DNA of 64,000 nt from Luzula sylvatica (lineage: Eukaryota; Streptophyta; Magnoliopsida; Poales; Juncaceae), in assembly GCA_946800325.1 (NCBI GenBank), contig OX326960.1, positions 18,276,893 through 18,340,892 on the forward strand, given 5' to 3'. The position numbers and the translations under genes were made by a program. Positions 1 to 35,367 of the stretch are shown here, piece by piece (position 1 is the stretch's first letter; each line of letters starts with the position of its first letter). The notes beneath the pieces were generated by a model that searched no databases, was not told the DNA's origin, and was given only the letters and a program-made list of their open reading frames with translations.

Positions 1-570
1 GACCCCCCCCCCCGAGGCCCGGCCCCCTTTCGGGCCGGACCCCCCCCCCCGAGGCCCGGCCCCCTTTCGGGCCGGACCCCCCCGAGGTCCGGCCCCCTTT
101 CTGGCCGGACCCCCCCCCCCCGAGGCCCGGCCCCCTTTCTGGCCGGACCCCCCCCCCCGAGGCCCGGCCCCCTTTCTGGCCGGACCCCCCCCCCCCGAGG
201 CCCGGCCCCCTTTCGGGCCGGACCCCCCCCCCCGAGGCCCGGCCCCCTTTCGGGCCGGACCCCCCCGAGGTCCGGCCCCCTTTCTGGCCGGACCCCCCCC
301 CCCCCGAGGCCCGGCCCCCTTTCTGGCCGGACCCCCCCCCCCCCGAGGCCCGGCCCCCTTTCGGGCCGGACCCCCCCCCCCCAAGGCCCGGCCCCCTTTC
401 GGGCCGGACCCCCCCCCCCCCCCGAGGCCCGGCCCCCTTTCGGGCCCGGACCCCCCCGAGGCCCGGCCCCCTTTCGGGCCGGACCCCCTCCTCCCGAGGC
501 CCGCCCCCTTTTGGGCCGGACCCACCTCCTCCCGAGGCCCACCCCCTTTTGGGCCGGACCCACCTCCTCG
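1..570. repeat. GC-rich minisatellite, left end
   Basis: About 15 tandem units of 33-40 bp. Each is built from GAGGCCCGGCCCC, CTTTCGGGCCGG and a run of 5 to 13 C. Length variation lies mostly in the C run. The unit contains a GGCCC/GGGCC palindrome, and the minus strand carries repeated long G runs. The array ends near 570 in degenerate units that read CCCACCTCCTC. Confidence 0.95.
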
Positions 571-1230
571 CGTGTACCTGCAAATACAAGTAAAACATAC
601 AACACATACAAATTACATATGTACACATGCACCTACACACATACACACTAACACACACATATACACCATACACAATAACACACACAGAAATACACCATAC
701 ACAGTAACACACATACGCATAGCAACTAGCAAGAGATGCTGGGTTTGTTATTCATCCCCCAAAACCAGTAGTTGGCCTTTCTCCATTTCACTATTTGTTG
801 GATCTTTGCATCGAGACGAAACAATCTACAAACCAAATATGCAAATAAATTAAGCCACTGAGAAGCCATAACTAAAAAAAATATTGATCATTAGAAAACA
901 ACAGTAAATTTACTAGTTTTTTCTTGTAAAGCAATAACTGAAAAGCCATAACATAAAATTAGTTTTTTCTTTTAACGAAACAGAAAGTTAAAGGTGTTCC
1001 TTTTTATTTTTTCAAAAATTAAGAAATTTTTTGGGTGTCATTCATAATTCAGGGGCTTTTTAGCTAAATACACAAATTAGGATAGATAATAGGTTAATTA
1101 TAAATTGGAAAATATTTCCACATAAAAAAACAACAAGATACAAACATTACTTGAAAAAAAGGAACAAGATACAAGCAGAAGAGACAAAAAGAGAGAGAAG
1201 AATAATCATCTAACTTTCATATGCCTAGAG

Positions 1231-1267
<37 letters not shown>

Positions 1268-1542
1268 AGAGAGAAAGAGAAGAGCTATCCCTCTTTTCAA
1301 AATTCCAAAAAATTTCATATGCCTGAAATCAAGAACAGAACTTTTACTTTACCTGTTTGTGCTTTGCTACTCAGCCTCGGCACTTCTAATCTGCTCGTCA
1401 TCATCATCCTGCGTTGAATCCATCGAGGGGTAACTCCATTATCGGACCACAATTAGAAATTACGGAGAGAGAGGAAGAAGCTGCTTGACTCTCTCCCTCT
1501 CTGAGCTCTCGCTTTTGCTTGAATCCATCTCGTTGTTGTCAA

Positions 1543-1602
<60 letters not shown>
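1231..1602. repeat. GA and CT microsatellites in the left arm
   Basis: (GA)n at about 1,231-1,263 and (CT)n at about 1,541-1,602. The CT tract separates two near-identical blocks that read, on the minus strand, ACAACGAGATGGATTCAA and then AGCGAGAGCTCAGAGAG. The same arrangement, mirrored, occurs in the right arm at 23,450-23,850. Confidence 0.85.
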
Positions 1603-1605
<3 letters not shown>

Positions 1606-1720
1606 CTCTCGCTTTTGATTGAATCCATCTCGTTGTTGTCAAGACTCTCTCTCTCTGAGCTCTCTTGAGAAATTAGATCTGAAAAGTGAATTGGCGAGAG
1701 AATGGAAGGGGTTGCTTATA

Positions 1721-1728
1721 CTTATAAA
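1721..1728 (-). promoter_or_regulatory. TATA-like box facing outward in the left arm
   Basis: On the minus strand the sequence reads CCCCTTTATAAGTATAAGC, followed about 95 bases later by ATGGATTCAA and a GA-rich leader. Spacing and composition resemble a plant core promoter. Transcription would run leftward, toward the GC minisatellite. The function is inferred from sequence only. Confidence 0.35.
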
Positions 1729-3383
1729 GGGGAGCGGATACACGCGTCTAACGTTCGGATCCAGCTGTCAATCCCAACGTTCGAATTTCCAACTCTTATT
1801 CGACCGTTGGAGAAATTCGGATCTCGCAGCACACTAAGACATTGCAACATATTTCATTATAAATGGGGTCGCTCTCTCTAGAATATTCTAATTTTGCTTC
1901 TAAAAGGTTTCTCAAACTTTTTCACTTCATTTCCTATTCCAATTTCCAGTACATTCATGATTTAGTGCTTAGTTTTCGCATGATTCAGGTACAGTAGCGC
2001 AATCGAAAGAAAATCATGATGCTATTACAACTGGGTCTTAGGTCTACAGGAGGTATTGTTCTTCGATTCATCAACACATTTTGCCATTTTCTATATCGAA
2101 TTAAATATTAGCAAGTTTATCCAACTCGAATTCATCTAAAAATGCTAATGCAGCAATGCAATCGAAGCGAATTAGGGATCCAAGCTCGAAATCATCTCAA
2201 TTTTGCCCGACTCTTTGTATGATGTAACTTCAATTGCATACTCACTCAATCATGAATTATTATAAGCAAGGTAACCCAAAACTTATATTTTAGAAATTGG
2301 ACTCTCATTCTCATACTCAATTGAAATTCCTAATCTTTTTCAACAGATTCGTGATGCAATCTGGCTACAATTGCTTTTCACCGAGCAATTTATAATCTCG
2401 GAACTGTTTCGGTAAATAAAATATTTGAATTTAAATTAAATAGCTATACATTAAATTATTTTGATTAATTGCAGAGCATGGCTTAGCAGAGGATAATATG
2501 AGATCTGGAAGACAAATCAGTGCCAAAGAAATATCTCCGATTCATCCAGTTTGCTAGGTATTATTTGGTCAATTTAGAAGGGGAGGGGTATTGGTGATAT
2601 TCTCATATTTTGTAGGGTTATTTCAATTTTAGTTAGTATATATTTCAAATTAAATATTTCAATGTATATATGTTTTTTTGTGCATATGTGCAGGTATATC
2701 GCAGTACTCCTGAGCAATTTTGCGGCGATACAACTTGCAGTTACCAATGGTACCGACGGTACGATTGGTACGGAGATAGTCAATGGAAAATAAACTGGCA
2801 CATGCTTTCGACAGTTTGACCAATGATGGGGTATTGAAAAGGGTATGGCTCCAATTAGGACAATAAGAGGGTTCGATCAGAAAATGGCATGACTTTTATT
2901 AACAAAAGATCCTTCTCGCTACAGTGAAGGTATTAATTGATCTTCATCTTTTCCAATTCAAAAACAAATTTAATCTTCCAAAGCCAATTAAAGAATAGAA
3001 ATCTTCTATGCAATTCCCAAAATTGGTACAGAAAATAACACGCGTCGGTACGACTGGTACGAAATCCAAAAGAATAGCTATTTGGGGCATTTTTCATATT
3101 TACCCCTGTAAAATCTCAAAATTATTGATTTGTTTTTTTGGTTATTTAGGATGCCGTATTTTGAGGTATAGCTGCAATTCTTCACGGTGGGAAGTGATAG
3201 CGTCGGTACCAAAATATGAGAAATCTCGATACCATCTTCATACCGCAGCCGAGCTTTCCATGTACATTCCCTAACTTTTTCTAAATCTTTTTCTCTTTGT
3301 TATGCACTGGTATTTATGCAAATAGATCCATGGAGTTTTGTAATTAAATTGTTTGTTTGTGTAGGTGTGATGCTGAAGAACTC

Positions 3384-4524
3384 TTGTGTGTGTTAAATAT
3401 TTTGGGAACATGGCTGGAACGAGGCTGGTGTGTGACTGGTACGGAACTAATCTATTTGTATAAATTGGATCTAATATGGTGCTGGTTCGGGGCTCGTAGG
3501 GTACTACAGGGTGCTGGGTTGGAGCTCTTAGGGTACATGTTTGAGGGTACATATTTGTATAAAGTGGATCTTGATTTCTTGATTTCAGTTGAGAGAGATG
3601 AAAATAGTGGGATTTGCAGGGTTATATAGAGAAATATGCTGTAACGGTTAGTTTGTTTGGAGGAGGGAAATTTATGAAATTTCATGTTTTTAGACTGGCA
3701 GAGAAGTTATAGAATGGAAAGAGAGGGATTTGTGAGAGTCTAAAAGAAGACAGAAGGGTTAATGTAAATTTTATAAGTGCAGGGGTTAATATGCATATTA
3801 CTTTCTTAGTGGGTTAATGGGTTTGAATAATCAGATGGTTTTTGACGAATGTTGTGAGAAGAAGAAAGATTGGAAATGAGATGGTGAATGTAGTGATATA
3901 GGATTTCGATGTTTGTACCGACTACGAGTTTGTACCGGTTGAGAGAAGAAGAGAGAAAAATACCGCAGCTGTACATGTACTGATTGTATTTCGATTGTGT
4001 TTACTAAACTTAATTATCATTATGAGATATTGTGCAGTTCGGTTAGAGGAGCTGTTTAATATAACATTATTTATAGTACAGTTAGGTTAGACTGTTAGAT
4101 GGGCTGTTTTGCAAATTTTTAGTAATGTAGTGATTTGTGTGTAATTTTAAAGTAATTGAGGGGCTAAATTGCGATTAAACAACATTACAGGGGCATTTTG
4201 CACAACATGTGGTTCCGGGCTGTTTTTCTAAGTTTCATAATAATGCAAGGACTTGTTTGTATTTTTTTAGTAATTGAGAGGCTAATTTGCAATTAAACAA
4301 ACGTTTGAGGGACTTGTATGCAATACATACATAGTTGTTGTTCAAGAATTGTAATTTCAATCTACTTCAAATTGTATGTGTTAAATAGTTTCTGAAACAT
4401 GGCTGATATGAGGCTGGTACATGGACGGCGGTAGGAAGCTGCTGTGTTCCTGGTTTGGGGCACGTATGACGTAGGGCACTACACGCTTGGAGCAATAGTT
4501 TTCAATTTTAAATTCTGACAGTTA
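3384..4524. other. AT-rich spacer inside the left arm junction
   Basis: No gene or structured repeat is recognised. The word GGTAC with variable neighbours recurs here and in the left arm (2,740, 3,045, 3,201, 3,434, 3,925). Paragraph-like variants of 'aattgaggggctaaattgc' recur near 4,155 and 4,273, which suggests a degenerate internal duplication. Confidence 0.4.
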
Positions 4525-4917
4525 GGGGCCGTTTGGTTCGTGTTTTGGAGAATGCCTTGGCATGAAGTATGCCAAGGAATCTCATGCCAAGGCATATCAT
4601 TCCATGGCATACTCTAATACTTTGTTTGGTTGGTACATTTATTTATTTCATGACATAATCAAAAAATATAAAAATGAGTTTATTTATAGAAACCTTGAAC
4701 AATTTATTTTTGGAAATTAAATTAAAATGTATTCTCTCGTCATGGGAATAGAGAAAAGCCACCAATTTTGGTGGTAATCCTATTCCCATCAATTATGCCC
4801 TAGGGAATGGAGTATGTCATTACTTTATTACCGAGCGCGCAAACCAAACATGTGAATGGAATCCATGATTGAGTATGCCAAGGCATTCTGATTGTAAAGC
4901 TTCAACCAAACGCCCCC
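4525..4917. mobile_element. PIF/Harbinger (Tourist-like) MITE
   Basis: A 393-bp element with terminal inverted repeats GGGGCCGTTTGGTT and AACCAAACGCCCCC, flanked on both sides by TTA, the 3-bp target duplication typical of PIF/Harbinger. The interior has the words ATGCCAAGG and CATGCCAAGG, with matching ATGCCAAGGCATTC near the right end. No coding capacity. Non-autonomous. Confidence 0.75.
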
Positions 4918-7277
4918 TTATATTGATATGTCCGCCAGTACAAAAATTCTTGCATTGTTGCAATTTGATCATCAACACCAACTCTTAGGCATTTTGTCGA
5001 ACACGTTGTCTACAGCCTCAAAAAGATTGATGTATCCTATATAAAAATCAAAGAGCATTCATCCCAATTAGTATAAAATATCTCTAACTACCCTGAAATT
5101 AAACTTCAAAACAGCACAAGTTACCACTAGTTATTCTTGGGGCAGTGTGAGCTCTAGCACATAGAAGAAAAACTTCCTTCAGAGTTTGAGGGGAGTCGTG
5201 AGATGGGTTAGGATTGTCGTGGGCTACAGTTGCGACATGAGAGTTGAAGCTTCTTCGACATCGACATGGCGAGGGTTAGGGACCACGACGAAGAAGGGAT
5301 TCGACAAGTAAGCTTCTTCACCAGATTATGCGTCGCCGGAGAAAGGGGCGTCAGGTTCTGCCGTCGCCAGATTCGAGCCGTTCGCCATGCCCAGAGAGAA
5401 GGTGATTCCAGCAATCCAACGAATGGAGAGAGAATATGGGTTCACGGGAAGAGAATTGACTAATTGAGTAGCCTTAGCTTAGTTTTAATTTATATAATTT
5501 AAAAAATATTTATGAAGATTTTCTAAATTAATACAAAAATAGTAAGTAAAATTAAATATGAAAAAGAATATTTTTGTCAAAAAAAACAACACCATCAAAA
5601 TTTCAAAATTAGGATTTTTTACTTGAGTTAAAAAAAAAGAAGGAATAATTGCTTGTATAGCCTCGCAAAAGTATAAAATATCATATTTAACCCTCTAAAT
5701 ATGCAAATATCAAATTTGTCCCTCAAAACTTAAATTCCTATCAAAATTGTCCCTACCTTTAACACTACTGTTTAAATTAACGTAGTTAATATCAAATTAC
5801 CTTTCTACCCACATATTTCTCCTTTCTTTTTGACGCTCCATTCCTCTCATTTGTCTCTGTTTTATTGGTTGTCGTCTTCATCATTTGAACTAACACTCTT
5901 ATCAATAGAACGCCTCAACTCTCATCACGATGCGACTACTATACTATATAGTTCGTCGACCATGATTTCATCGTGTGCATAAGTAAAGATTGTACTTATC
6001 TTGATATCGTCGATCAACTTGTCTGTATTCCTCTTCATCTCTCTCGTATCATTTTTTCGTATGGCCTTGGAATTATCTAAACATTTCACTTTTCTTCTCT
6101 AAAATTAACTTATGGTCAGGTCGGAGGCTAATTTTGTTGAGATATCAACCATCGATACTCAATTATGCGCTAATCATACCTCAATAGTCCCAAGTACAAC
6201 CATATTTGCCTTGATGTAACCTCACATGTGTAATCGATAATCACTTTTTTCTCTTTTATAAATATTACAAAAGATTTTGAGGATTATTAATCGCACCCGT
6301 CATGAAAAGCCCAAATCACAGATGAAAAGGTTTTACATTGCCGAATTTTTTTTTTTTAGAACTAGTTGCCGAAACATTTATTTTTTTTACTTTTTTATTT
6401 GTGCTTATTTATTGACTTTATTTTTTCTAATTTTTTGGTGATTTTTGACTTTATTTATTTGTTTTTGTGTATGGCATGATAGCATCTCTAATTTATTTTT
6501 CTTTGTTTCACTTTCTTCGGTTATTGACTTCATTTATTTGTTTGTGTAGCATGATAACATCTGTATAACTTTACAAATACAAAAGAATGGAATACTTTAA
6601 TAAACAATATAATCATATTGAAGGGGAGCTCTTGAAAAATTGAATGTTGTTGGTTCATTTTATATGCATTTTTTTATTGTTTTACATTAAAAAAAAATAA
6701 AGAAAATGTATTATACTACTCATTGACTATCTCATTATTTTAAAATAGAAATACATTTCATCAAATAAGTTCTTAACGCATAAATAATAATAATACATCC
6801 AGAGTGTGCAAATAATTTCGAAATTATATAAAGCAATTGAGTATAAAATATAAATAAAACCAAAATTATATAAATTGAAGAAATCCAATAATTGGATATA
6901 CAAACACCATGTCCATTAAAAAGAATAAAAGCCCTGAAATTATATAGACTAGGAGAGAAATTATATACTGAACAACTGATTAATATTCGAGTTAACTAAA
7001 TTGAGCTAAAACAATATTATAATATTCTAAATGGTACCCTCGTTTCGATTCATAATTATTGTTTTTAATAATAAATTGATATATAATGACTACAATTGAT
7101 ATTGATAAAAAAATAATTATGTTCTTATAATTAATAATTATGTTTTTGATAAAAAAAAAATGAATTAAAAACAATTAATCTAAAATATTATAATTATTAG
7201 TGAGATCATACAAAGAGAGAGTTATTTTGCAAATTAAAAAAACATCCAAGAAAGTAGTCTCTTCGGCCCGATAATGT
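4918..7277. other. Intergenic AT-rich DNA
   Basis: No supported gene. A locally GC-richer patch at about 5,190-5,460 has open frames on both strands with no recognisable domain, start context or introns. The block at 5,650-5,820 (words such as TTTGTCCCTCAAAA) resembles the edge of a decayed transposon. The rest is AT-rich without structure I can name. Confidence 0.4.
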
Positions 7278-7363
7278 GAATTGAAGAATGATTCATTTGA
7301 TTAAACAAAATAAGAAATATGAATTGAAGAATGATTCATTTGATTAAACAAAATAAGAAATAT
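7278..7363. repeat. Two-copy 43-bp tandem duplication
   Basis: The 43-base unit beginning GAATTGAAGAATGATTCA occurs twice back to back with no visible difference, which suggests a recent slippage or repair event. Confidence 0.9.
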
Positions 7364-9160
7364 CCAAGGATAATTCATAATTCATAATTATTTTTAAAAT
7401 GAAACAATGATTATTCTTAATAAGGGACTCACATGAATAGCTTGTGTTATTCATTTAAAATAAATAATATCATTTTTTTCTTATTATTATTGATAGAAGT
7501 GATTTAGTTACAATAAATTATCATACACAATATTACAATTTACTTAATACATAACAATTATAATTAAATGATTGGAAAATATATATTGAGAGTTTCAAAT
7601 TTTGAGTGAACTGTTTATACACAAACATTCACACCATCTTGATATAAATTATGTTACAATGAATATATTTATATGGACCATTTTTGGTCCGCTAATGATA
7701 TGTCATTTATGCAATGAAATGGCTTCATGTGTTCGTGCATACAAGCTGCTCAAATTGATGTTCATGCATTAATATATAAGAAACATTTCATGTTCAGTGA
7801 TTAAAAGCAGACAAAAATCTATTGTTATATCATTATTTTTATTCAAAGATCAAAGCAAATAAAATTAATTCATCATTCATATTCATAATCTAGTAAGCAT
7901 TGGAGAAAAAAGAAAAAGAGAAATACATAATTAGTTAAAAATTATATCATAACAAATGGGAAAGAAACCAAATAATAAAGGATTAGCATGCTACAAGAAG
8001 AAAACAAAAAAAAATAAACAAATATTTTTTTTTACAATCGCCTGAAAAAAAATTGAGTTAAATTTTACATAAACAAATTGATATTGATATCCATTTTTAA
8101 GTATATAGAGACATTGATTAAACACGAAATAAATAAAGTGTGGTAAACACTATTAAAATGGTGTAATTAAAATTTATTAAAAATGTTTAATCCATTGAAA
8201 TGTATATATCACAATACAAATTTATAAATTAATCTTACTAAAATTTAAAAAAAATGTTCAATCCATTTATGCAAAAATTTACGAGAAAAAAGAAAGAATG
8301 GCCCAATTCCATCTATCAGGGGAGGAAACCCTTTGTTAATTATTTATAACTTAAGATAATACCCGCCCTACGCTACGGGCATTTTGGTTTTCTTATCAAA
8401 TATACTAAAACAATTATTAAATATTTCTATAGAAATTTCATTGTGTATAATATAAAAATGGCCTTGCGGTTATTTGGTCTCATTGTTAATTTATTCAAAA
8501 CAAGATTCTAATGCAACGAGGTAAATAATATGGATGTTAAACTTGTTCTATTATATAAAGAAATTACAGCTTAAGTTTACAGTAAAGTTGGAATTTATAA
8601 TTCATAGTTTTCGTACACTCCTAATAATATTGAAGTGCATAAATTATAATTCATAGTTTTCTTACACTTTTTATATTCAAGTTCATAAAATATAGATCAA
8701 AACATTTACAATCTTAGACATTTTAGTCATGCAAAGAACATGACAAGCAAAAAGTTAAAATACTTTTATATGCAACAAAATGCAATTCAATTCACGATAT
8801 TTTTCTTAAAAAACAGCTCATATCAAAATTCGCAAAGTGGCTTTTAGGTTTTACAAAATGATAAATCTACGTCGCCTTATTTATATTATAAAGCTATGAT
8901 TTCCAACCAAACAAAAATATTTTTTTTCTTAATATTGAAACTATTTAGTATGCTTAGAGATGAATTAGTGTATGATCATGAATACCATTGCCGACTTAAA
9001 TTAATTCTTCTTATCAGTAAGAAAAGAGTAATTCCCTTGTAAGAAATTTGCAACAATCATAATTTATTGTATTGGAAAAAGTTAGTCGTCAAAAATTAAA
9101 TTATAATGATATAATAGTGTAATTTTGATATATCAAATTAAATTGTTTACTATGTGTACA
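7364..9160. other. AT-rich DNA with a degenerate Helitron-like end
   Basis: No gene seen. At 8,361-8,380, ACCCGCCCTACGCTACGGGC forms an imperfect GC hairpin in AT-rich DNA. Read on the minus strand it is followed by GGTATTATCTTAAG, similar in layout to Helitron 3' ends but with CTTA instead of CTRR. Treat as a possible decayed terminus only. Confidence 0.3.
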
Positions 9161-9345
9161 TGATATATATTGATAAATCAATAATACCACAAGCTAAATA
9201 TGTCCAACATAATAAATGACATATGTAATTAACATGTTATTTATATGATATATATTGATAAATCAATAATACCACAGGTCCACAAGCTAAATATGTCCAA
9301 CAAAATAAATAAATAAATGACATTTGTAACTAACATGTTATTTAG
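9161..9345. repeat. Two-copy 85-bp tandem duplication
   Basis: Units starting TGATATATATTGATAAATCA at 9,161 and 9,246. The second has a short insertion (GGTCCACA) and an extended TAAA tract. Non-coding. Confidence 0.85.
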
Positions 9346-9453
9346 TGTATAAAATATTAACTAGATAAAAAAAAGTCATGCACAATGTCATTTGTGTGAG
9401 GTTGGCGCAAGGGGAGGCCTCGGAATCTGTGAGAGTTTATTGATAATTCTCGG

Positions 9454-9918: not shown

Positions 9919-10148
9919 ATTCTTGGCCTTTCTTTCAGCACTTCTCCGCGTCGAGTATAGACCCAAAGAAAGGGGAGGGGGGGAAAAGAGAGACTAGAGG
10001 GTGCACAGAAGAGGCGGGGCGTGGAGCATGGCTCCCGTAGTCCCGTGTAGTGGAGTGGAGGTGTGGTTTCGTTAAAAAGCATAATAGTTCAAAATAAATG
10101 TTGAATTTTTTAACAAAAATTCTTCTTGTCCCGAATTGTTTTACTAAA

Positions 10149-10319
10149 GAGTAATGATAGAAACCACACCCTTTTTCCCACGAATTTACCACAACTGCCA
10201 CGTGTCAGCACACCATTGGCTGCAGCAAAAGTTGATGGAAACTTGCAGCCAATGGTATGCTGACACGTGGCAGTTGTGGTACATTCGTGGGAAAAAAATG
10301 TGGTTTCTATCATTACTCC
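10149..10319. mobile_element. 171-bp hairpin MITE with 8-bp target duplication
   Basis: Almost the whole element is one inverted repeat: arms of about 75 bases (10,149-10,224 and 10,244-10,319) beginning GAGTAATGATAGAAACCACA, around a loop of about 20 bases. TTACTAAA flanks it at 10,141-10,148 and 10,320-10,327. The 8-bp duplication points to the hAT class. The transcript would fold into a long, nearly perfect hairpin. Open frames here on both strands are shadows of the inverted repeat. Confidence 0.8.
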
Positions 10320-10327
10320 TTACTAAA

Positions 10328-11793: not shown

Positions 11794-11801
11794 GTTTAAA
11801 T

Positions 11802-11986
11802 CAATGTTTTAAATTGCGATATAACGGTCCATTGCGATTGGACTATAATTTACATATGATGACCGATATTGCGCGATATTGCGGCAATATTGCGGCGCAA
11901 TTTTGTTGTTTGTGACATTGCGTTTTTGAAATATTTATTGCGATTTGCGCTATTGCGGTGCAATTGCGCCGCAATTTAAATCATTG
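11802..11986. mobile_element. 185-bp hAT-type MITE, 'GCGATAT' family, copy 1
   Basis: Terminal inverted repeat CAATG-TTTTAAATTGCG / CGCAATTTAAATCATTG. Perfect 8-bp duplication GTTTAAAT at 11,794-11,801 and 11,987-11,994. The interior is dense in ATTGCG/CGCAAT words. A second copy in opposite orientation lies at about 27,326-27,510. Confidence 0.75.
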
Positions 11987-11994
11987 GTTTAAAT

Positions 11995-12907
11995 ATATGA
12001 AGTGTTTAAAGATCATATTAGAGAAAAACGAAATATAATAACTTAATTTTCAGAAATTCGAGCATTTCGAACACTCTCCAATTTTAACTAAATCTGTCCA
12101 TTTTGGTATTCTAGTTTCCCTCTTTACAAGTATTTGTTCAATTCCTTTTTCTATTTCGCATCTCCACAAAAGCTCAAAAGCAGTAAATTTGAGAATAGGA
12201 GTCCATGGACACTGCTCTCTTCAAAACATCAAGCCTCGTGCTTTTTTCCTCACCTGGTCTGCTACGCAAGCATTGAGCGGCTAGGGTTTCGAGTCGGAGA
12301 ACAAAATGCAAGAGAGAGAACAGACTCGGATCGGATACCATTTTCTATAAAACCGGGTTCATTTGTGGTTCCAAAGTTGGTCATTAACTTTAGACATTAA
12401 ATAAATTTTAATTGCCCAAGATAGTCTTTGGAACTATTAATTGTTCTTATATTGTATCGTAACACAATTTTTGTTAACAAAAAGTTCTTTTATTTTTAGA
12501 CCTGAAATTTTAATTCACCTATATGTCATGTTTCTCGCTCAAATTTTAATTGGATGCATTCATTGTAAATTTGTAATAAGCAATCACATTCAAACAATTT
12601 AATGTTTTTTATGAAAATTCGAATTGACGTGTCCATACTTCATTGTAACAAGCACAACGAAATTTATTGTTTTCTAAACAATTCATTAAGTTTTATCTCA
12701 TTCATGCAAATGATTTGCCCACGTTAAATCTTCAAATGAATGTATCCATTGTAACATTTTTTTATATACAAACCATTTTACAATTGAAACTTCCGAACAT
12801 TAAAACCTTGCAATCATTTATAAAATTAACCGTTAGATACAAACCATTTATATAATTTTGGATGTATTTCTAATTGAGCTTGATTGTAAAATCTATTTAT
12901 TTAATAC

Positions 12908-12940: not shown

Positions 12941-12942
<2 letters not shown>

Positions 12943-15900
12943 GAGAGGTTTCATTGAGTTTCTATTTGGAGTCCTTATTTAGAGTACCAATCTGGATCGT
13001 TGATCCTGCTTCGATGAACGTTCGAGAATTGATAGAAGCAACATGCTGCCCACTATTCACCCTCTGCCCAGACACTTACGCTCCTAGACTGCAACCTCTT
13101 CTCTCTCTCTCTCTCTCTCCTAAACGGCTCATTTGCCCCTCACACGACGGCACAATCCTCTAATCGCCTAGACGACGGCAGCGTGTCCAGAGGCTTCCTC
13201 TCTCTGCTCGACGAGCCCCAATACTCGTCGTCTCGGTTGAAAGATCGGATTTGACTCATTCGGAGAAATCTATCGAGGTTTGTTCTGATTTTTTGGGATT
13301 TTTTAGACTTCGATTTTGTTTGCTGCTTTTCTCTTCATTTGCTTTAAATCTCTGATAATAACGAAAAAGTTGCAATCAAGATTTGAACTTTAAATCTCTG
13401 ATAATTCCCTCAAACTCTTTTTTTGTTTCAATTTACTATTTATCAAAAACTATTAAGAGTTGCCCAATATCCTTGAGAAACGATTATTTACAAAAATATC
13501 CCTAATAGTTTATATCTTTCATAATTAATTTAAGTTAATAATGATTTAAGATAAATTTATATTAACTGATTGAACAAATCAGATCTGGAAGATAGCTTTG
13601 TGGGCAGGGCTAGAAATATTTATCACAATCCTAAAAAATTTCATGGCAATATGTCTTATCTTAGTCGTAACAAATGATCTAATTTTGCATATATACCCTT
13701 CCGAATTTTGCATATATATCCTTCAAAATGGCTCAAAGAACAATGTTTCAAGACTGGTACCAAGAGAGACTGGTATCAGTTTGGATTAGGGCTTGTTAGG
13801 GATAGAGTTCGGGTTCATGATTATAATTATTGGAGATAAATTGAGTTCTAATTTGAGTGTCAATATGAACTTTTTATGATTTGTTGAGAAAGATATACAG
13901 GAAAAACAAGGGCCGACTGGAGGACTGGAAGGAAAGACCCAATCTCAATGCCATTACCCTCCTTCTCGCGTGACTGGTTCCAACAGCAAGATTAGGACAA
14001 AGGTGCTCAAATCACATTTATGAAGAAAGCCCTAATTTTTTGTTTTATCTCCATTTCTCTAAATTATAAAAGTATGTTTTTATATCTTTTTGTTTGTACA
14101 ATTTCAAAATGTCATGAATCAAATGTACTTATTTTACTTCTGATTTCATTATAGGCACAATCATAGGTTCCGTTCACATCATTTGCACGGTCTTACGAGT
14201 AAAGATTGGTCTCGATCGCACGAGAGGAAAAGCGGCTCGATTACTTGAGCAGGGCTTGAACTTGATGCAAAGAGAAGAGGTCTGACTTGGAGTTTTATGA
14301 CATTTTTAGTGTTTCGTGGTTTTTAAAAAAAAATTATGGTTGTGGACTTATTTTCGTAATTTTATGGTTTTGCGGACTTCATTTTTATTGTCAAGTTACT
14401 AAGGACCTCTTTGTAGAATCTATAAGAAAATGTTGGATTTATTTTGAAAATGTGATTTTTAGTTGAAATTTATTCAAAAAGCCCCTTTACAAGGATTTAT
14501 ATTTTTAAGACCCCTGCACCATAAAAAGACTATTTATACATTCGCTGCGGGTAATTTTTTATTCATGCTTCATTTGTTGTTTTTTGCATTTATTCGTATA
14601 ACTGCCCCGGAATCTATTCTTGTTAAATCATTTAACGAAAACAATAAATCATTGCATTAAAAATATCTATTCTTATTAATTCTATAAACCGAAAGAATAC
14701 ATATTTGCATTATAAGGATCATTTGACTATTCATCCCAATAACATAATCTGACAACTATGCATTTTATCATCACTCAAAAAAATTCAATTTCAACTACCC
14801 TAAATATAATCCCTGTGACACAAAAGAATTAACGTTGTTCAATAATTACAATAAAATTCATAATATCATAGAAATTCAAAATGCCTGCGCTAGACGAAAA
14901 ATGTATATAAATTACAATTCAGAACCGAAATCATAATCACAATAAACATGGATAGTCAAAATGCCGACCCCACTATTTCTTCTTCTCAGTCGACCACAGG
15001 GACTCAACAAGAGCTCGATCAGAGCCTTGACTCGGGCTCAATCAGAGACCGGTTGCAGACACTTGTGAAGTTTGTATTGTGCAAGATAGGACTCGGTCGT
15101 ACCATACGAGTTGGTACCAAATAGGCACATAGGTCTTCTTCCTGTAATAATAATATATTCATGTAATAGTAATATATAGTATTCGAAATCTCAAGATAAT
15201 GGAAAACAAAAGAAAAGAAAAAGAAAACCATTATGAAAATAATGATTTTTTTTACTCGCCTTTATGAAGAAGGAATGCCAGGCTGTCAAGAAAGATACTA
15301 AAACATATTTTACAACAACAAAATTTATGTATACCAATAAAAGTGTTTTTCGTCTAGTCCTGCTCATTAGAAAAGCTCACAATATCATGATAGGTAACTA
15401 AAAAAGAATCAAATAAATCAATTGCCGACAACCTATTTTCCTTATAAATAATCAAGAAAAGCAAGGAGATTAATACAAACAGAGGACTTAAATAGTTCCA
15501 TCAAGAAAAGCAAGGAGATTAGCCAAATTGATCCTAAATTCAACTCAAATCAGTCTATAGATAAGTAATTTGAAACGACAAAAAGAGTTTGAGGGAATTA
15601 TCAGAGATTTAAAGTTCAAATCTTGATTGCAACTTTTTCGTTATTATCAGAGATTTAAAGCAAATGAAGAGAAAAGCGGCAAACAAAATCGAAGTCTAAA
15701 AATCCCAAAAAATCAGAACAAACCTTGATAGATCTCTCCGAATGAGTCAAATCCGATCTTGCAACCGAGACGACGAGTATTGTGCCGTCGTGTGAGGGGC
15801 AAATGAGCCGTTTAGGAGAGAGAGAGAGAGAGAGAGAAGAGGTTGCAGTCAAGGAGCTGAAGTGTTTGGGCAGAGGGTGAATAGTGGGCAGCGTGTTGCT

Positions 15901-15989
15901 TCTATCAAATCTCAACCGTTCATCGAAGCGGGATCAACGAACCAGATTGGGACTATAAGGACTCCAAATAAGGACTCCATGGAACCTCT

Positions 15990-15992
<3 letters not shown>
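12941..15992. mobile_element. Long-TIR element B (3.05 kb) inserted in a TA microsatellite
   Basis: Inverted arms at about 12,941-13,425 and 15,580-15,992, both beginning GGGAGAGGTT from the outside, about 87 percent alike by eye. The left arm carries roughly 55 extra bases near 13,160. Each arm holds a short CT/GA run and the word CCGTTTAGGAG or its complement. The interior (13,430-15,580) is mostly AT-rich with one GC-richer short frame at 14,948. No transposase seen; non-autonomous. The superfamily is uncertain; long arms are commonest in Mutator-like elements. Confidence 0.7.
14948..15124 (+). CDS. Short hypothetical ORF inside element B (58 aa)
   Basis: ATG at 14,948, TAG at 15,122. The product starts MDSQNADPTISSSQSTTGTQ and ends IGLGRTIRVGTK. 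It is polar at the N-terminus (Ser/Thr/Gln-rich) with a short helix-like centre (RDRLQTLVKFVLCKIG). The frame is less AT-rich than the DNA on both sides, which is what a captured exon would look like. No family is recognised, and no promoter or splice pattern is convincing. It may be the first exon of a fragment or simply a chance frame. Confidence 0.25.
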   Translation: MDSQNADPTISSSQSTTGTQQELDQSLDSGSIRDRLQTLVKFVLCKIGLGRTIRVGTK

Positions 15993-16033
<41 letters not shown>

Positions 16034-16049
16034 ATATATATATATAGAG
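15993..16049. repeat. TA microsatellite shared by elements B and C
   Basis: (TA)n with two CC interruptions separates the right end of element B from the left end of element C. Both elements therefore abut the same simple repeat. Confidence 0.9.
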
Positions 16050-16749
16050 AATAACTAAAAAGTTTGTACAAGTTGTACATCTTATTTGCTTGTAAGTTTT
16101 GAACCGTATGATCCACTGTAAGATTCGTGCAAAGCTTTCAAGTACACACTCCGTTTACTTTTAAAAAGAGTTCCGTCAGAACCATCCTTCTCAGTCAAAA
16201 CCTTCTCTCGCTTGTTACCTTCCTCTCATGAACTCCTCTCTCGAGCGACTTTCAGACCAACTCTCTCCAGCGACGCCGCTCATCCCAAAGCCTTTCTCAC
16301 AGGAGACGATGGTGATAATTCTCTCTTGCACGAGAAGCATTAGGAAGGAGCATTCTATCCTTTCAGTTGTCATGAGGGTATGGTGAAATAATGGTTGTAG
16401 CTATTTGAATGGATGAGGGATATAGAACCAATTTTGGTCACTACGAAGATTTTTTTTTTTTCTTTTCTATTTCAACTCTTCAACATGCCCAAATCTAAGA
16501 GGTACTGATTTTTTTAGTATTTAATTTACTTACTGATCAATTTCGTGATTAAACTTTCTGCAAAATTAATATTCATCATCGCATTCATTTCCAGTTTTTT
16601 TGCAGGAATTGTTTACTTTCAGTAATATTTCCTGCTGATTTTATTATTTTCTTTATAACGTTTGTTTAACGAATTGCCTAATTTTGGATCTTTTTGGTCT
16701 TAATTGAGGTTGTTAACAATCAATGTTGACTTGATGTTTGTACTTGGAG

Positions 16750-16803
16750 TGCAGATCGGTGCACAACACGTGTTCGACGAAATGCTCCCCATGCCTCTAT
16801 AGA
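16750..16803 (+). pseudogene. PPR-like gene fragment in element C
   Basis: After an acceptor-like GTGCAG the plus strand reads QIGAQHVFDEMLPMPL and then a stop at the codon after CCTCTA. The VFDEM core preceded by an A-x-x-like helix resembles the start of a pentatricopeptide-repeat (PPR) motif in plant organelle RNA-binding proteins. Only about 17 codons are recognisable. The same sequence is repeated on the minus strand of the tandem array at 17,729-18,027. Assignment rests on one short motif. Confidence 0.3.
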
Positions 16804-17728
16804 ATGGTTCTCAACTTAATTTGTAGAACATAACTATCACCATTTCTTCAAACATTTTTTGTGATTTTTTATTTTTTTTTGCAAAATTTCCCTGATTCTT
16901 TGTTCTTTTCGTTCAGAAATAGGTGGTGGCAATGAAAATTCGAAGATGCCAAGCCACATAATTATCCTCAAGAGGCCAAGCTAGCTCTAATTCCAAATTA
17001 AGTTCTGATGAATTGAGGTCGAGTTGCATAAATTGGCTATGAATGAGTTGAGACATGCTTATAATCCAATAATTTGTCGAGGCATGCATACAAGCCGTGT
17101 AAGCACGAAGTGACTTTTTTGGAGTGCATTGCAAAATTCTCAGTGTTTTTAAGGTGACTTTGCAAATTTATGAGCATTGACAATGCATAGAATTGTATAT
17201 ATAGCTGAATGAAGGATACATATGATTTAGGATTGTAATTGAAACATGAATTGTTTCTGATGATATTTAAGATCTTTTATGAAAAATAATCAATATATGA
17301 TATGTTTTGTGGTGAAATGAAAATAAAATATTAATTTTAGTGTCTTATATTTTTAATCCTATGTACATCATTTAAATGTATGTTCTTATTTAAGCATCAT
17401 GCCAATACAATAATACCGGTACCGTACCTTCGTTTTGATACACATATACAACTAAAATTATATTAGATATTTGATTTCATAGTACACGACATAAAATTAT
17501 ACAACGTGTAAACACTTATATATTTAAACCTAATTACTTACCCTAATACATAATCAGAATTAGAGGCCCATAACACTATTACAGCCAGTGAAAACCTAAT
17601 TACTCAAAAAACCATAATACACGGTCACTGTTACAACACCTTAGATTAGTCATAATACAATCTAAACTTTTTCAACATTGTGTAATTGGAAGTTCAACTT
17701 ATTATCGAAACATTGTAATTGGAGCTCA

Positions 17729-18027
17729 AGGAGCATTTCGTCGAACACGTAATGTGCATCGGCCTACACTCCAAGTAACAAAATCGAGTACCATTCTATA
17801 GAGGCAAGAGGAGCATTTCGTCGAACACGTAATGTGCATCGGTCTGCATTCAAAGTAAAAAAAAAACGAGTACCATTCTATAGAGACAAGAGGAGCATTT
17901 CGTCGAACATGTAATGTGCATCGGTCTGCATTTAAAGTAAAAAAACCGAGTACCATTCTATAGAGATAAGAGGAGCATTTCGTCGAACATGTAATGTGCA
18001 CCGGTCTGCACTCAAAGTAGCAAAACA
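17729..18027 (-). repeat. Four-copy 80-bp tandem array carrying a PPR-like motif
   Basis: Units start AGGAGCATTTCGTCGAAC at 17,729, 17,809, 17,891 and 17,971. On the minus strand each contains DAHYVFDEMLL or a close variant, followed by a stop in CTATAGAATGG. A 176-codon open frame crosses the array on the minus strand in another frame and simply repeats with the same period. The array and the single plus-strand copy at 16,750 make an internal inverted repeat. Confidence 0.8.
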
Positions 18028-18552
18028 CATGTAATGTAACTGTAGGCTCGTTCATCATAAATTGAGTCTTATTTTGAACTCGATTAACACCATAGGAAAA
18101 GAGAGAGGAGTGGTTTTCGTGGGTTCCTCGTTTGCACGGCTGAGAAGTGGAAGAGAGCTTCCTTCCGTGGATTCGAAGAGAAGAACACAAGGGGCAACAA
18201 GGAGGAGGACACGGAAGAAGAAAACTGGAGGTAACCTTCTGACGGAGAGATGTCAAAATAACGGAGCCTGTTTTTTCTTAGAGTGGCACGGATCAGGAGC
18301 AAAATCCAACGGTTAGAAACTTACAAGCAAAAAAGCAGCACAACTTGGGAAAGTCGCTCGAGAGAGGAGTTCATGAGAGGAAGGTAACAAGCGAGAGAAG
18401 GTTTTGACTGAGAAGGATGGTTCTGACGGAACTCTTTTTAAAAGTAAACGGAGTGTGTACTTGAAAGCTTTGCACGAATCTTACAGTGGATCATACGGTT
18501 CAAAACTTACAAGCAAATAAGATGTACAACTTGTACAAACTTTTTAGTTATT

Positions 18553-19349
18553 ATATATTAAAAAAATGAAAAATTGGTATCTCACTGATATGATCTGATA
18601 GCGTTCCGTTATATCGGTCAAATTATTTATCGATCGTTGATTGATTTGTAAACGATATGCGATATCTAACGTTGTTTATATGCACTAGTCGAGGTTCGTT
18701 GTTACCTATTCAATGCCATTAAATAGGAAATGCAAATGAATGGTCTATGACCGTGCATTGACACGTCCTTATCCACATCATTGTAGCACTCGGGTATTGT
18801 CTCGTACAAAATTGTGATGATATTTCTCAAACATGTTTGGACCGAATAAGTGACTATTTTTTATGGATAGTAATAATTAGAGTTCTTATGTAAATGCTGG
18901 CATGCTTATAATTTACCAAATGTTGTGTTTGGTATAAGAGAAAATAGTTTAATGCATATTAGATGGGCTCAGCACTTGTTTGTCAAGGATTCTAAAAAAT
19001 ACCTTGTTTTTAAAATGGTATTTCCCAGAAAATCCAAAAGTGAATCCTATTTGTTTCGAAGATGTAAATATCTTTTTATCTTTTTAGATTGTTTTTTCCC
19101 ATTAAACTACATTCAATTCAATTTTTTTAATCTAGAAGCCTTTTTCTCTCTGAATGTTAGAACACACGTGTGTATTTTTGCACTAATTAGGCCCCTCAAT
19201 TTTCGTATTTACAAAAATAACATAATCGATCCATGGGCTATTTATTATGCAAAGTCGAACATGAAATCCACCGTCATAAACAAACTTGTAAGAATATCAA
19301 ATACATATGTAATCTCATAAAACCAAAAATATCAACTTTAATCAATTTT
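18553..19349. other. Intergenic AT-rich DNA
   Basis: No supported gene. The 131-codon frame at 18,925-19,320 has low-complexity, Phe/Lys/Asn-rich composition expected of translated AT-rich DNA and no motif. Confidence 0.35.
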
Positions 19350-19365
19350 AAATGTTATTTTCTTT

Positions 19366-19426
19366 TATATCATTTATTTGGAAGGGGGATGTGGAAGCCC
19401 TCTCTGAATTTATTCAAAAAAAAAAT
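19366..19426 (-). mobile_element. 61-bp remnant of a LINE 3' end with target duplication
   Basis: A tiny insert flanked by a perfect 16-bp direct repeat, AAATGTTATTTTCTTT, at 19,350-19,365 and 19,427-19,442. Read on the minus strand the insert has TTCAGAGAGGGCTTCC and CCCCCTTCC, closely resembling the sense-strand 3' end of the full LINE at 36,222 (GAGAGAGGCTATCG, CCTCCTTC). This is what an extremely 5'-truncated retrotransposition would leave. A poly(T) run at its right side blurs the orientation. Confidence 0.6.
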
Positions 19427-20540
19427 AAATGTTATTTTCTTTGTTCAGTAAAACGGTTCGCATCATTGCAGGAATTGGTTTATATACGCAAATATATGAG
19501 ACTGGAGTGATTCTCAAAACAAGGTGTGACTATTGTTATAATCTGACTCTCTCCGGATGCAATCCAAAAAAAAAGAAATAAAGATATTTTGTGTCATTTT
19601 GTGTACAATTTTTTTATAACCAGTCAATTCAACAATTAACAAAATTAAATTTTTATACTAGAATGAATAAATTTTTGTAACGAGCCATTTTTATATTACA
19701 CATCGCCCATAATATTATGAATATTTTTTTGTTATAATACATACATATGTATTGAGTATAATATATCGTATTCTATTAAATATTAATTTTGAGAATTGAT
19801 GTCTTTTCGTATCAGTATCATATAGGACTTTATGAGACCAAAACATATTTCACCTATATCCAAATTTTATGCAGCTATTGTTTACAAGGAAATAGGATTC
19901 ATTACACAAATACACAATTTCATGTCTTTTTGCCTGACTAACATTCTTTATGTATTGCAACATAAAAATAATTTTAATTAAATCTCAGTCGTTCATCCGA
20001 GATAGATAAAGGGTTGAGATTTATAATCTTAATAAGTTAATAACAAAAAATATAACATGATTATATTGGTGGTCGGGTCATTGTGATTTATCATAAATGT
20101 TATTTTCTTTGAAATTCTCTTTTTCAAAAATGTTAGGAGTGATTGCCCAAATTTTTGCCCTTACCCCAAGACCAACCCCTGTTTTCAAATTAGAACTTAA
20201 TGACTCTAAAACATGTTCCTAATAGCTCAATTTGAGTAATTTAAGATTAATTAGATTGTTCTTTTAAAATAAATGATCCAAACGAAAATTAATTATTTGA
20301 TGTATGTTGATGCATGTTTTTGTATTACTTTATAGTATCATTTAACTTTTTATATGTTTTATTAGAATACTAAATAATTTTTTCGCATTATATCATATTC
20401 CAAAATGATATAATGAATTTTGTTATCATCAAACTTAATTAAGCAACGTAATATATGTAAATTCAAACACTCAACACAATATTTATTAATTATTTGATAA
20501 CGAATGATAATTCATAATTATGATAAAATAAATGAAACAA

Positions 20541-20570
20541 ATCCGTCGCGAAGCACGGGTGATTTAATAG
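20541..20570 (+). mobile_element. Helitron-like 3' terminus (degenerate)
   Basis: CCGTCGCGAAGCACGG forms a short GC hairpin, followed by GTGATTTAATAG and T. The layout matches Helitron 3' ends (hairpin, about 10 bases, CTRR, then T), but CTAG has become ATAG. The 20 bases upstream (AAAATAAATGAAACAAATCC) match the terminus at 27,062 on the opposite strand, so the two belong to one family. The 5' end was not located. Confidence 0.45.
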
Positions 20571-20766
20571 TTTTATGATAATTTGTTAAGCAATTCTTAA
20601 TAACGAGTCTTACTTTTGCAGCAATAATGAGAAAAGAAAATGAAGGAATAAGATGAAGAACAACATACGATAGTTTGATTCTCGATTTCAGAGAGGCCTT
20701 CATGGCGATGAGATGGACCTAAAACAAAGTGTTGTTGAGTTATCTGATTCTTGCATTCTAAATGGT

Positions 20767-20866
20767 AAATAATAAATATATCTCGATTTAAATTGTGTAA
20801 TTTTAATGATAAATAATAAATATATCTCGATTTAAATTGTGTAATTTTAATGATAAATAATAATAG
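20767..20866. repeat. 44-bp tandem duplication
   Basis: Units starting AAATAATAAATATATCTCGA at 20,767 and 20,811, essentially identical, plus the start of a third. Non-coding. Confidence 0.85.
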
Positions 20867-23356
20867 ATATGTAACAATATAACCTTCTTTCTCCACAAGT
20901 CTGTATATTTGATAAAATCTTTTGCGCTACAAGAGCACACCAAAATAATTGCCTTAAAAATTTACCTATCTCATACATAAAAATGTAGATGAAGTATGCA
21001 TTCGTGTCAAAAATTTACATCACAGGCATAAAACAAGTTCGCACTTTTTTCTTTTTGAAACACACAACAAACTAATGAACAGTAACACAATTACTATTTA
21101 GACCCCATAAACATTGATAATTGCATAATATCCCCCAAGCCCTCATTTTCAAAACTAACAAGATAACAAACAGTAAAAATTTACTATTCAAACATACTAA
21201 TTCCATAATCAATAAGAATGAACAATCTTTCGCAATTTGACCCATGAAAGCTTACTCGGACAAATGGAGAATTCAATTGCATGTAATCTTCAAAATTAAA
21301 TTCCTTATAGCTTGATTTCGGATTACAAGAAAGGCAAAAATTGAGCAGAATTGAGAAGATGCTATCTTACCAAGTAGCAAATTCAAAACAGTACGTAAAA
21401 AGGTAATAAACCCCAAATCAAATTTCTCAGTGAAACATTTGTTTCATTCGCAAATTTTAGTAGAACTGAGGTAATTATCTTACCAGAATAGCTTATTTTC
21501 TCGACCTAAGTCAGGTATCTTGGATCTGGAGTCTCGCTAGTATTGTAGATGGATAGTGACGCCTCGAGTTCTTCAGCATCACACCTACACAAACAAACAA
21601 ACAATTTAATTACAAAACTCCATGGATCTCTTTGCATAAATACCAGTGCATAACATACAGAAAAAGATTTAGAAAAAGTTAGGGGATGTACATGGAAAGC
21701 TTGGCTGCGGTATGAAGATGGTATCGAGATTATTCCAAACGAGAGGCCTTCCACAGTTAAGAATGTAAGATACACAATTGATTCGTTACTTCCTCTTGAG
21801 ATAACCTTCAAATAATCTACAATGAAATTAATAAAAATTGCAAATATTAGAAATTTCGAAATTCCACTCTATTATTTTTAACAGTCTTATATTCTTTTTT
21901 CAGTACACATTTGAGTTTCAGTAGATTAAATTCTGCCTTTTAATCATTTATTTTTTCAGTACCTTTTTTCGATTTGCTCCCAATTCTTGATGAACCAAAC
22001 TACCTGTATGGCTATATGTATAATAAACAATATAACATTAATTATTGTATGAAATAATAAAAAATAATTATTACAACATAAGAGTATAACCTTTATTAAT
22101 TTAATTGTGTTGTCCATCTCTCTCCCTGCCAAAAAAAAAATAATATAACAAAAATGCTACAATCACATATATAATTCACCGAAATGATACCGAATTGATT
22201 TTTCAGGTAAATATAAAATGGACCCCACATGTTTTTATTTCCATAAGAACATAATCGGTGTTGTTTCCGTGGATTAATTATGGGACTGTATCATTTTTTA
22301 TAATATAAACATCAAATTTTCCTATTAATTTCGTAAAATAATAAATTTGTTAAAAACCAGGGGTATAACTGCAAAAAGTAAAATAATTCAAGAAAAAATA
22401 AATTTAGTAATTGTAATATACCCAAGATGTTGTACCAGGTCTGTATTCCTTAGCAGTCGTACCGACGAGTGTTATTTTCTGTACCAATTTTGGGAATTGC
22501 ATAGAAGATTTCTATTCTTTAATTGGCTTTGGAAGATTAAATTTGTTTTTGAATTGGAAAAAATGAAGATCAATTAATACCTTCACTGTAGCGAGAAGGA
22601 TCTTTTATTAATAAAAGTCATGCCATTTTCTGATTGAACCCCTCTTATTGTCCTAATTGGAGCCATACCCTTTTCAATACCCTTTTCAATATTTAATTGA
22701 TGGGTGAAAATCAATTGTAGCTGGATTGCATCACGAATCTGTTGAAAACGATTAGGAATTTCAATCGAGTATTAGAATGAGAGTCCTATTTCGAAAATAT
22801 AAGTTTTCAGTTACCTTGCTTATAATAATTCATGATTGAGTGAGTATGCAATTGAAGTTACATCATACAAAGAGTCGGGCAAAATTGAGATGATTTCGAG
22901 CTTGGATCCCTAATTCGCTTCGATTGCATTGCTGCATTAGCATTTTTAGATGAATTCGAGTTGGATAAACTTGCTAATATTTAATTCGATATAGAAAATG
23001 GCAAAATGTGTTGATGAATCGAAGAACAATACCTCCTGTAGACCTAAGACCCAGTTGTAATAGCATCATGATTTTCTTTCGATTGCGCTACTGTACCTGA
23101 ATCATGCGAAAACTAAGCACTAAATCATGAATGTACTGGAAATTGGAATAGGAAATGAAGTGAAAAAGTTTGAGAAACCTTTTAGAAGCAAAATTAGAAT
23201 ATTCTAGAGAGAGCGACCCCATTTATAATGAAATATGTTGCAATGTCTTAGTGTGCTGCGAGATCCGAATTTCTCCAACGGTCGAATAAGAGTTGGAAAT
23301 TCGAACGTTGGGATTGACAGCTGGATCCGAACGTTAGACGCGTGTATCCGCTCCCC

Positions 23357-23364
23357 TTTATAAG
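23357..23364 (+). promoter_or_regulatory. TATA-like box facing outward in the right arm
   Basis: TTTATAAG sits in CCCCTTTATAAGTATAAGC, followed by a CT/GA-rich leader and an ATG at 23,457. It is the mirror image of the box at 1,721-1,728. Downstream lie GT-AG-like sites: donor-like CACAAACAG/GTAAAG near 23,731, an acceptor-like TTTGTAG before 24,249, and TTTGCAG before 24,526. A spliced transcript running into the GC repeat is possible but unproven. Confidence 0.35.
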
Positions 23365-23456
23365 TATAAGCAACCCCTTCCATTCTCTCGCCAATTCACT
23401 TTTCAGATCTAATTTCTCAAGAGAGCTCAGAGAGAGAGAGTCTTGACAACAACGAG

Positions 23457-23479
23457 ATGGATTCAATCAAAAGCGAGAG

Positions 23480-23540
<61 letters not shown>

Positions 23541-23815
23541 TTGACAACAACGAGATGGATTCAAGCAAAAGCGAGAGCTCAGAGAGGGAGAGAGTCAAGC
23601 AGCTTCTTCCTCTCTCTCCGTAATTTCTAATTGTGGTCCGATAATGGAGTTACCCCTCGATGGATTCAACGCAGGATGATGATGACGAGCAGATTAGAAG
23701 TGCCGAGGCTGAGTAGCAAAGCACAAACAGGTAAAGTAAAAGTTCTGTTCTTGATTTCAGGCATATGAAATTTTTTGGAATTTTGAAAAGAGGGATAGCT
23801 CTTCTCTTTCTCTCT

Positions 23816-23855
<40 letters not shown>

Positions 23856-23860
23856 GGCAT
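23457..23860 (+). other. Duplicated ATG-GATTCAA leader blocks with GA tract
   Basis: Two copies of a block ending in ATGGATTCAA(T/G)CAAAAGCG flank a (GA)n tract at about 23,486-23,538. A third ATGGATTCAA at 23,660 opens a short frame, MDSTQDDDDEQIRSAEAE, that stops at 23,716. A donor-like site follows near 23,731. This could be the 5' part of a captured gene or of the element's own transcript. No protein family is recognised. Confidence 0.3.
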
Positions 23861-24248
23861 ATGAAAGTTTGATGATTATTCTTCTCTCTCTTTTTGTGCT
23901 TGTATCTTGTTCCTTTTTTTCAAGTAATGTTTGTATCTTGTTGTTTTTTTATGTGGAAATATTTTCCAATTTATAATTAACCTATTATCTATCCTAATTT
24001 GTGTATTTAGCTAAAAAGCCCCTGAATTATGAATGACACCCAAAAAATTTCTTAATTTTTGAAAAAATAAAAAGGAACACCTTTAACTTTCTGTTTCGTT
24101 AAAAGAAAAAACTAATTTTATGTTATGGCTTTTCAGTTATTGCTTTACAAGAAAAAACTAGTAAATTTACTGTTGTTTTCTAATGATCAATATTTTTTTT
24201 AGTTATGGCTTCTCAGTGGCTTAATTTATTTGCATATTTGGTTTGTAG

Positions 24249-24350
24249 ATTGTTTCGTCTCCATGCAAAGATCCAACAAATAGTGAAATGGAGAAAGGCC
24301 AACTACTGGTTTTGGGGGATGAATAACAAACCCAGCATCTCTTGCTAGTT
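24249..24350 (+). other. Exon-like segment in the right arm
   Basis: After an acceptor-like TTTGTAG the plus strand stays open for about 33 codons: it begins LFRLHAKIQQIVKWRKAN, continues with YWFWGMNNKPS and stops near 24,350. The left arm holds the mirror copy at about 738-838 with one visible change (H to D). Composition is more protein-like than the surroundings. No family assignment. Confidence 0.25.
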
Positions 24351-24530
24351 GCTATGCGTATGTGTGTTACTGTGTATGGTGTATTTCTGTGTGTGTTACT
24401 GTGTATGGTGTATTTCTGTGTGTGTTAGTGTGTATAGTGTATATGTGTGTGTTAGTGTGTATGTGTGTAAGTGCATGTGTACATATGTAATTTGTATGTG
24501 TTGTATGTTTTACTTGTATTTGCAGGTACA

Positions 24531-25147
24531 CGCGAGGAGGTGGGTCCAGCCCAAAAGGGGGCGGGCCTCGGGAGGAGGTGGGTCCGGCCCAAAAGGGGGC
24601 GGGCCTCGGGAGGAGGGGGTCCGGCCCGAAAGGGGCCGGGCCTCGGGAGGGGGGGTCCGGCCCGAAAGGGGGCCGGGCCTCGGGGGGGGGGGGGTCCGGC
24701 CCGAAAGGGGGCCGGGCCTCGGGGGGGTGGGGTGGGGGGGTCCGGCCCGAAAGGGGGCCGGGCCTCGGGGGGGGGGGGGTGTCCGGCCCGAAAGGGGGCC
24801 GGGCCTCGGGGGTTCCGGCCCGAAAGGGGGCCGGGCCTCGGGGGGTCCCGGCCCCCCGGGCCTCGGGGGGTCCGGGGGGGTTCCGGCCCGAAAGGGGGCC
24901 GGGCCTCGGGGGGGTCCGGCCCCGAAAAGGGGTCGGGCCTCGGGGGGGGAGGTCCGGCCCGAAAGGGGAACGGGCCTCGGGGAGGGGGGTCCGGCCCGAA
25001 AGGGGGCCGGGCCTCGGGGGGGTCCGGCCCGAAAGGGGGGCGGGCCTCGGGGGGTCCGGCCCGAAAGGGGGGGGGTTCCAGCCCGAAAGGGGCCGGGCCT
25101 CGGGGGCCTCAGGGGGGGGTGGTCCGGCCCGAAAGGGGTCCGGCCCG
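24531..25147. repeat. GC-rich minisatellite, right end
   Basis: Mirror copy of the array at 1-570: about 17 units with GGTCCGGCCCGAAAGGGGGC followed by GGGCCTCGGG and a G run. Here the G runs are on the plus strand. The array begins directly after TTTGCAGGTACACGCGAGG, where an acceptor-like TGCAG precedes the repeats. It ends abruptly at GTCCGGCCCGTAAAAAG, where AT-rich DNA resumes, so this is the visible right boundary of the structure. Confidence 0.95.
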
Positions 25148-34837: not shown

Positions 34838-34845
34838 ATCAAGAT

Positions 34846-35359: not shown

Positions 35360-35367
35360 ATCAAGAT

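Follow-up and report, generated by a model that had tools for sequence, protein, structure and literature searches.

Our analysis showed that the first 25 kb of the window (the whole stretch of 64,000 nucleotides of Luzula sylvatica DNA that was analysed) are bounded by near-identical inverted arms of ~3.4 kb, which lie at 1-3383 and 21566-25147 in a self-BLAST and are separated by ~18.2 kb (18,182 bp). We regard this structure as probably one non-autonomous foldback-like long-TIR DNA transposon, later filled with smaller transposons; the element is most likely old and non-coding. The initial annotation had placed inverted ~3.4-kb arms around ~18 kb here, and both the self-BLAST and a detailed alignment confirmed them. 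It had left a choice between a large transposon and a recent inverted duplication. The transposon is favoured, though not proved, because of the shared tandem-repeat tips, the sharp right edge and inverted repeats that, as in foldback elements, are long and composite; the duplication is kept as a rival. A single insertion event would have brought in composite inverted termini of ~3.4 kb, each with an outermost GC hairpin minisatellite followed inwards by a 1.8-kb core and inner blocks, and smaller transposons would then have accumulated in the middle. Mobilisation would have occurred in trans, by a transposase encoded elsewhere and acting on the array-tipped ends, and gene conversion between the arms would have produced a near-identical tract.

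Table 1. Parts of the 25-kb structure (positions in the window).
Feature	Position	Strand	Details
Left GC minisatellite, C-rich on + strand	1..561	+	15 loop units; outer end beyond window
Left arm core	562..2390	+	99.06% identical to reverse complement of right core
Left-only stretch	2391..2828	+	Opposite short right-arm junction with duplicated 12-bp unit
Left arm inner block 2	2829..3068	+	96.7% identical to 22442-22682 reversed
Left-only stretch	3069..3221	+	No BLAST match; faces right-only 21732-22441
Left arm innermost shared block	3222..3383	+	96.9% identical to 21566-21731 reversed
Nested MITE, presumably Tourist-like	4525..4917	.	TIR GGGGCCGTTTGGTT, TTA on both sides
Nested palindromic MITE	10149..10319	.	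Self-inverted match 10140-10327; 8-bp target duplication TTACTAAA
Nested 3.1-kb element	12941..15992	.	~0.5-kb TIRs starting GGGAGAGGTT, within (AT)n tract
Nested 2.5-kb element	16044..18558	.	210-bp TIRs, 99% identical
Presumed Helitron-3′-end-like piece	20296..20576	+	GC hairpin GTCGCGAAGCACGGGT; 68% identical to 27056-27323 reversed
Right arm innermost shared block	21566..21731	-	Aligned to 3222-3383
Right-only stretch	21732..22441	-	No BLAST match in left arm; no Pfam family reaching its cut-off
Right arm inner block 2	22442..22682	-	Aligned to 2829-3068
Right arm core	22695..24541	-	Aligned to left core
Right GC minisatellite, G-rich on + strand	24542..25147	-	16 loop units, ending abruptly at 25147

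The self-BLAST alignment of 23-2390 with 25071-22695 reached 94.6% identity over 2,418 columns with 91 gaps, the minisatellite counted in, and two further inverted matches joined 2829-3068 to 22682-22442 and 3222-3383 to 21731-21566. When the minisatellite was left out, the core (562-2390 against the reverse complement of 22695-24560) had 17 mismatches in 1,818 aligned positions, i.e. 99.06% identity, and 59 gap columns. Mismatches were found at 8 of 240 positions in inner block 2 (96.7% identity) and at 5 of 162 in the innermost block (96.9%). The arms are collinear yet incomplete: the left arm alone has 2391-2828 and 3069-3221, and 21732-22441 is confined to the right arm. TRF reported the unit ATACCCTTTTCA at 22665-22691, in the right-arm junction opposite 2391-2828, and because this junction is short and carries a duplicated 12-bp unit, the missing stretch was perhaps deleted from the right arm. 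Comparison of 3069-3221 with 21732-22441 gave a local score of 44 (shuffle mean 30.3, largest 45), ~3 standard deviations up, and a distant common origin of these two stretches is possible; for 2391-2828 against the same right-only stretch, the score was 54 (shuffle mean 40.8, largest 66).

Inward of 3383 and 21566 there is no inverted homology (local score 47; shuffle mean 46.0, largest 64; 60 shuffles in 2-base blocks), and the middle between the arms has no symmetry. The collinearity of the arms and the lack of homology above shuffles beyond these points count for the transposon. The middle without symmetry counts against it, as do the arm length, which is far above that of typical plant TIRs, the size of at least 25 kb (~19 kb minus the four recognised insertions), which is large for a TIR element, and the failure to match any terminal motif to a named family.

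By eye, the left arm core contains CT/GA microsatellites, with TATA-like strings near 1717-1730 and 1858. The CpG observed/expected ratio falls from 1.01 in the flank and 0.92 in the interior to 0.74 and 0.69 in the arms, a slight depletion that may reflect methylation. Eleven of the 66 GGTAC/GTACC strings of the window lie at 3001-4000, and the right arm has no similar cluster. Just inward of the left arm, 3384-3526 and 4372-4494 form an imperfect direct repeat (local score 68 against a largest score of 36 in 60 shuffles).

The core mismatches are clustered: up to and including 1233 there are 5, the stretch from there to 2276 is free of them, and the other 12 crowd into ~115 bp (2276-2385). 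The longest mismatch-free interval is 1,043 bp and has one indel inside, a CT tract of 58 bp on the left versus 56 bp on the right. When all 30 arm mismatches were placed at random 20,000 times, no trial reached such a length, in a test that presumes uniform mutation, leaves out indels and demonstrates clustering, not its cause. The clustering fits gene conversion between the arms, and a recent event of this kind would best explain the near-identical tract. An assembly artefact, either a false palindrome or collapsed haplotypes, might also yield a core of 99.06% identity with a 1-kb mismatch-free stretch. Outside the arrays, however, 30 substitutions, several indels and three non-shared blocks distinguish the arms, which lie 18 kb apart. 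Chimeric fold-back reads are expected to yield adjacent, near-identical arms. The unshared blocks and the 18-kb spacing thus argue against an assembly fold-back, and we judge an artefact to be highly improbable.

Both arms are tipped outwardly by the same GC minisatellite, as had been claimed from the first inspection, with ~37-bp units (spacing 33-41 bp in the left array), of which 15 loop units were counted on the left and 16 on the right. The G+C contents of the two arrays are 83.6% and 82.3%, and the consensus unit has a potential GGCCCG-loop-CGGGCC hairpin. With up to 2 mismatches allowed, a 25-base pattern of the unit matched 22 times in the window, 12 times in the left array and 10 times in the right, with no match elsewhere (shuffle expectation 0.00). 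One scan of viral_contigs with a pattern gave 0 matches, a viral set being uninformative for a plant. When the minisatellite was folded as RNA, two 146-nt stretches beat shuffles (z -3.9 and -5.5), and a 40-nt stretch (31-70) folded no better than shuffles (z -0.57). G4-type motifs number 13 in the left array, 12 in the right and 6 in the rest of the window.

The arms share their two innermost array units (CTTTTGGG variants), and the outer units are arm-specific; within the left array, listed units six to nine repeat the series of variants seen in units one to four. Because the innermost units are shared and the outer ones differ, the ancestral arm probably already carried the array, whose units would then have turned over. 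At ~25147 the right array gives way abruptly to AT-rich DNA, the sequence directly to its right being TAAAAAGCCTT..., while the left array runs off the start of the window, so that position 1 is no boundary of the structure. Just right of the palindrome edge, 25403-25665 and 28951-29225 form a direct repeat with 82% identity.

These edges bear on the inverted segmental duplication, in which repair or template switch, with no transposase taking part, would have placed a reversed copy of a ~3.4-kb minisatellite-bearing stretch at a distance of 18 kb. Such an event would agree with the ragged inner edges and their non-shared stretches, with the result that no transposase domain was found in the six-frame Pfam search of 560-24560, and with the look of the arms, which by eye resemble ordinary promoter- or 5′UTR-like sequence with microsatellites. 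We nevertheless consider it unlikely, as the visible outer end is the end of a tandem array and both arrays have the same innermost units, which a random edge would give only by coincidence.

Long inverted termini containing tandem arrays of variable copy number, as in foldback elements, were found here, and the foldback-like interpretation draws on excerpts of PMC3169594, PMC4079207, PMC3310237 and PMC9168764. The excerpt of PMC3169594 describes elements of foldback type that have 9-bp duplications and TIRs made of variable tandem repeats, and Tm1, a Mutator/Foldback family of root-knot nematodes, whose units are mostly 14 bp, with 1-9 per end; some Tm1 elements encode transposase. As far as this excerpt goes, our structure is like Tm1 in its long composite inverted termini and in its variable tandem-unit numbers, unequal between the ends of one element, but its units are ~37 bp, very GC-rich and at least 15 per end, and its arms reach 3.4 kb. 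The excerpt of PMC4079207 reports that copies of Tetris of Drosophila virilis lack conserved ORFs, similar to the lack of any Pfam domain at cut-off in our scans, and that foldbacks are known also from rye and Arabidopsis.

According to the excerpt of PMC3310237, plant MULE TIRs are typically 100-500 bp with duplications of 9-11 bp, and plant Mutator-like elements have long or multiple, possibly promoter-bearing TIRs, non-autonomous forms being common. Our structure shares long TIRs with these elements but differs in having 3.4-kb arms instead of 100-500-bp TIRs and in showing no MULE domain. In the six frames of 560-24560 no Pfam match to the MULE transposase domain was found, an absence which alone would be compatible with membership of the Mutator superfamily because non-autonomous members lack the domain; a Mutator-type relationship is a guess by analogy. 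The initial annotation had held that the ends of a single transposon here would be unlike standard plant TIR families. This holds for their size relative to MULE TIRs of 100-500 bp (excerpt of PMC3310237) but not for their type, since composite tandem-repeat foldback TIRs are already known.

It is conceivable, but doubtful, that the structure represents a plant foldback family not described so far, whose outermost hairpin- and G4-prone GC minisatellite would itself serve as a multi-site transposase-binding end and ongoing gene conversion across 18 kb would keep the arms near-identical. No paper on this element was found among the literature matches listed, as judged by titles and the beginnings of abstracts, which does not prove that none has been published.

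At least four smaller TIR elements or MITEs were identified inside the structure, two of them with clear target duplications of their own, which supports the earlier description of the palindrome as nested. The four recognised smaller elements make up 6,131 of the 18,182 bp between the arms. The MITE with a TTA target duplication on both sides is presumably Tourist-like (PIF/Harbinger type), and the other is bordered on both sides by identical 8-mers, which we take to be a duplication of hAT-type size. The 3.1-kb element is Mutator-like by form only, and the AT tract around it makes its target duplication unreadable. For the 2.5-kb element, which carries an 80-bp tandem repeat at 17729-18026, no target duplication was recognised by eye. 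A GC hairpin lies near 20544-20571, in the piece taken as Helitron-like. The interior also holds dispersed repeats, since an inverted repeat with 82% identity has one copy inside the 25-kb structure (11795-11999) and one outside (27313-27517).

Pfam scans of six-frame translations, with stops read as X, revealed no transposase domain and no Pfam family at cut-off in 560-21600 and 21500-24560, and a search of the whole window for RNA families gave 0 matches at gathering score. The Pfam method works on this sequence, as a LINE was recovered with high confidence when the three minus-strand frames of 34000-43600 were scanned in the same way. The absence of a transposase domain in the scanned parts counts for a non-autonomous element. 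Matches to TCP, Atrophin-1, DUF3915 and CCB1 were rejected as transposase remnants, all being below cut-off; the strongest, DUF3915, had E 0.00043 and scored 20.6 bits (cut-off 26.9). Those to DUF3915, Atrophin-1 and TCP are taken as compositional, from GA/CT-rich low-complexity stretches of the arms. An LTR retrotransposon was also rejected, because the terminal repeats are inverted, not direct, and the six-frame Pfam scans contained no gag-pol domains.

The asymmetric middle, a patchwork of unrelated insertions, would also suit two opposed insertions of one ~3.4-kb element, the 18 kb between them being made up of host DNA and other transposons. This seems quite unlikely to us: the inner (...GTGACGCCTC) and outer (TAAAAAGCCTTAAAG) flanks of the right arm have only GCCT in common, i.e. 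no target duplication in an unsystematic comparison by eye, and no terminal inverted repeat was noticed within a single arm.

The suggestion that the arms could form a cruciform or hairpin RNA found no support in the sequence. To judge from the layout, pairing of the arms in a hairpin RNA would need a transcript across the 18 kb between them, and transcripts starting inside each arm would share the same sense. The predicted local hairpin and G4-type potential sits in the minisatellite instead. Should the structure be a single transposon, the known foldback-type elements would gain a very large member, and one that illustrates how gene conversion between arms keeps far-apart inverted repeats similar. 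Inverted repeats of such length can also promote rearrangement and confuse assemblies.

The recovered LINE, at 36206-42551 on the minus strand, is a full-length-looking plant L1-type element. Its ORF2 is open over 1,114 aa and has endonuclease, RT and zf-RVT domains (Pfam), and an upstream ORF of 800 aa has DUF4283 and zinc-knuckle matches slightly under the cut-offs. The 16-bp sequence TAATTGATTTGGTATT, present in identical form at 36206 and 42536, looks like the target duplication of this LINE. An AT-rich satellite-like tandem array of ~180-bp units, with periods of 183 and 359, lies at 32397-34379; sedges and rushes are often holocentric. A 128-bp tandem repeat was found at 58103-58649, with a related copy ~2.7 kb away at 61374-61557. 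An mTERF protein encoded at 44109-45254, the one protein used to place the host, points to a probable monocot close to Cyperaceae: of its 9 database matches with E no higher than 1e-30, the best four were from Rhynchospora and Carex (44-48% identity) and four were from Musa.
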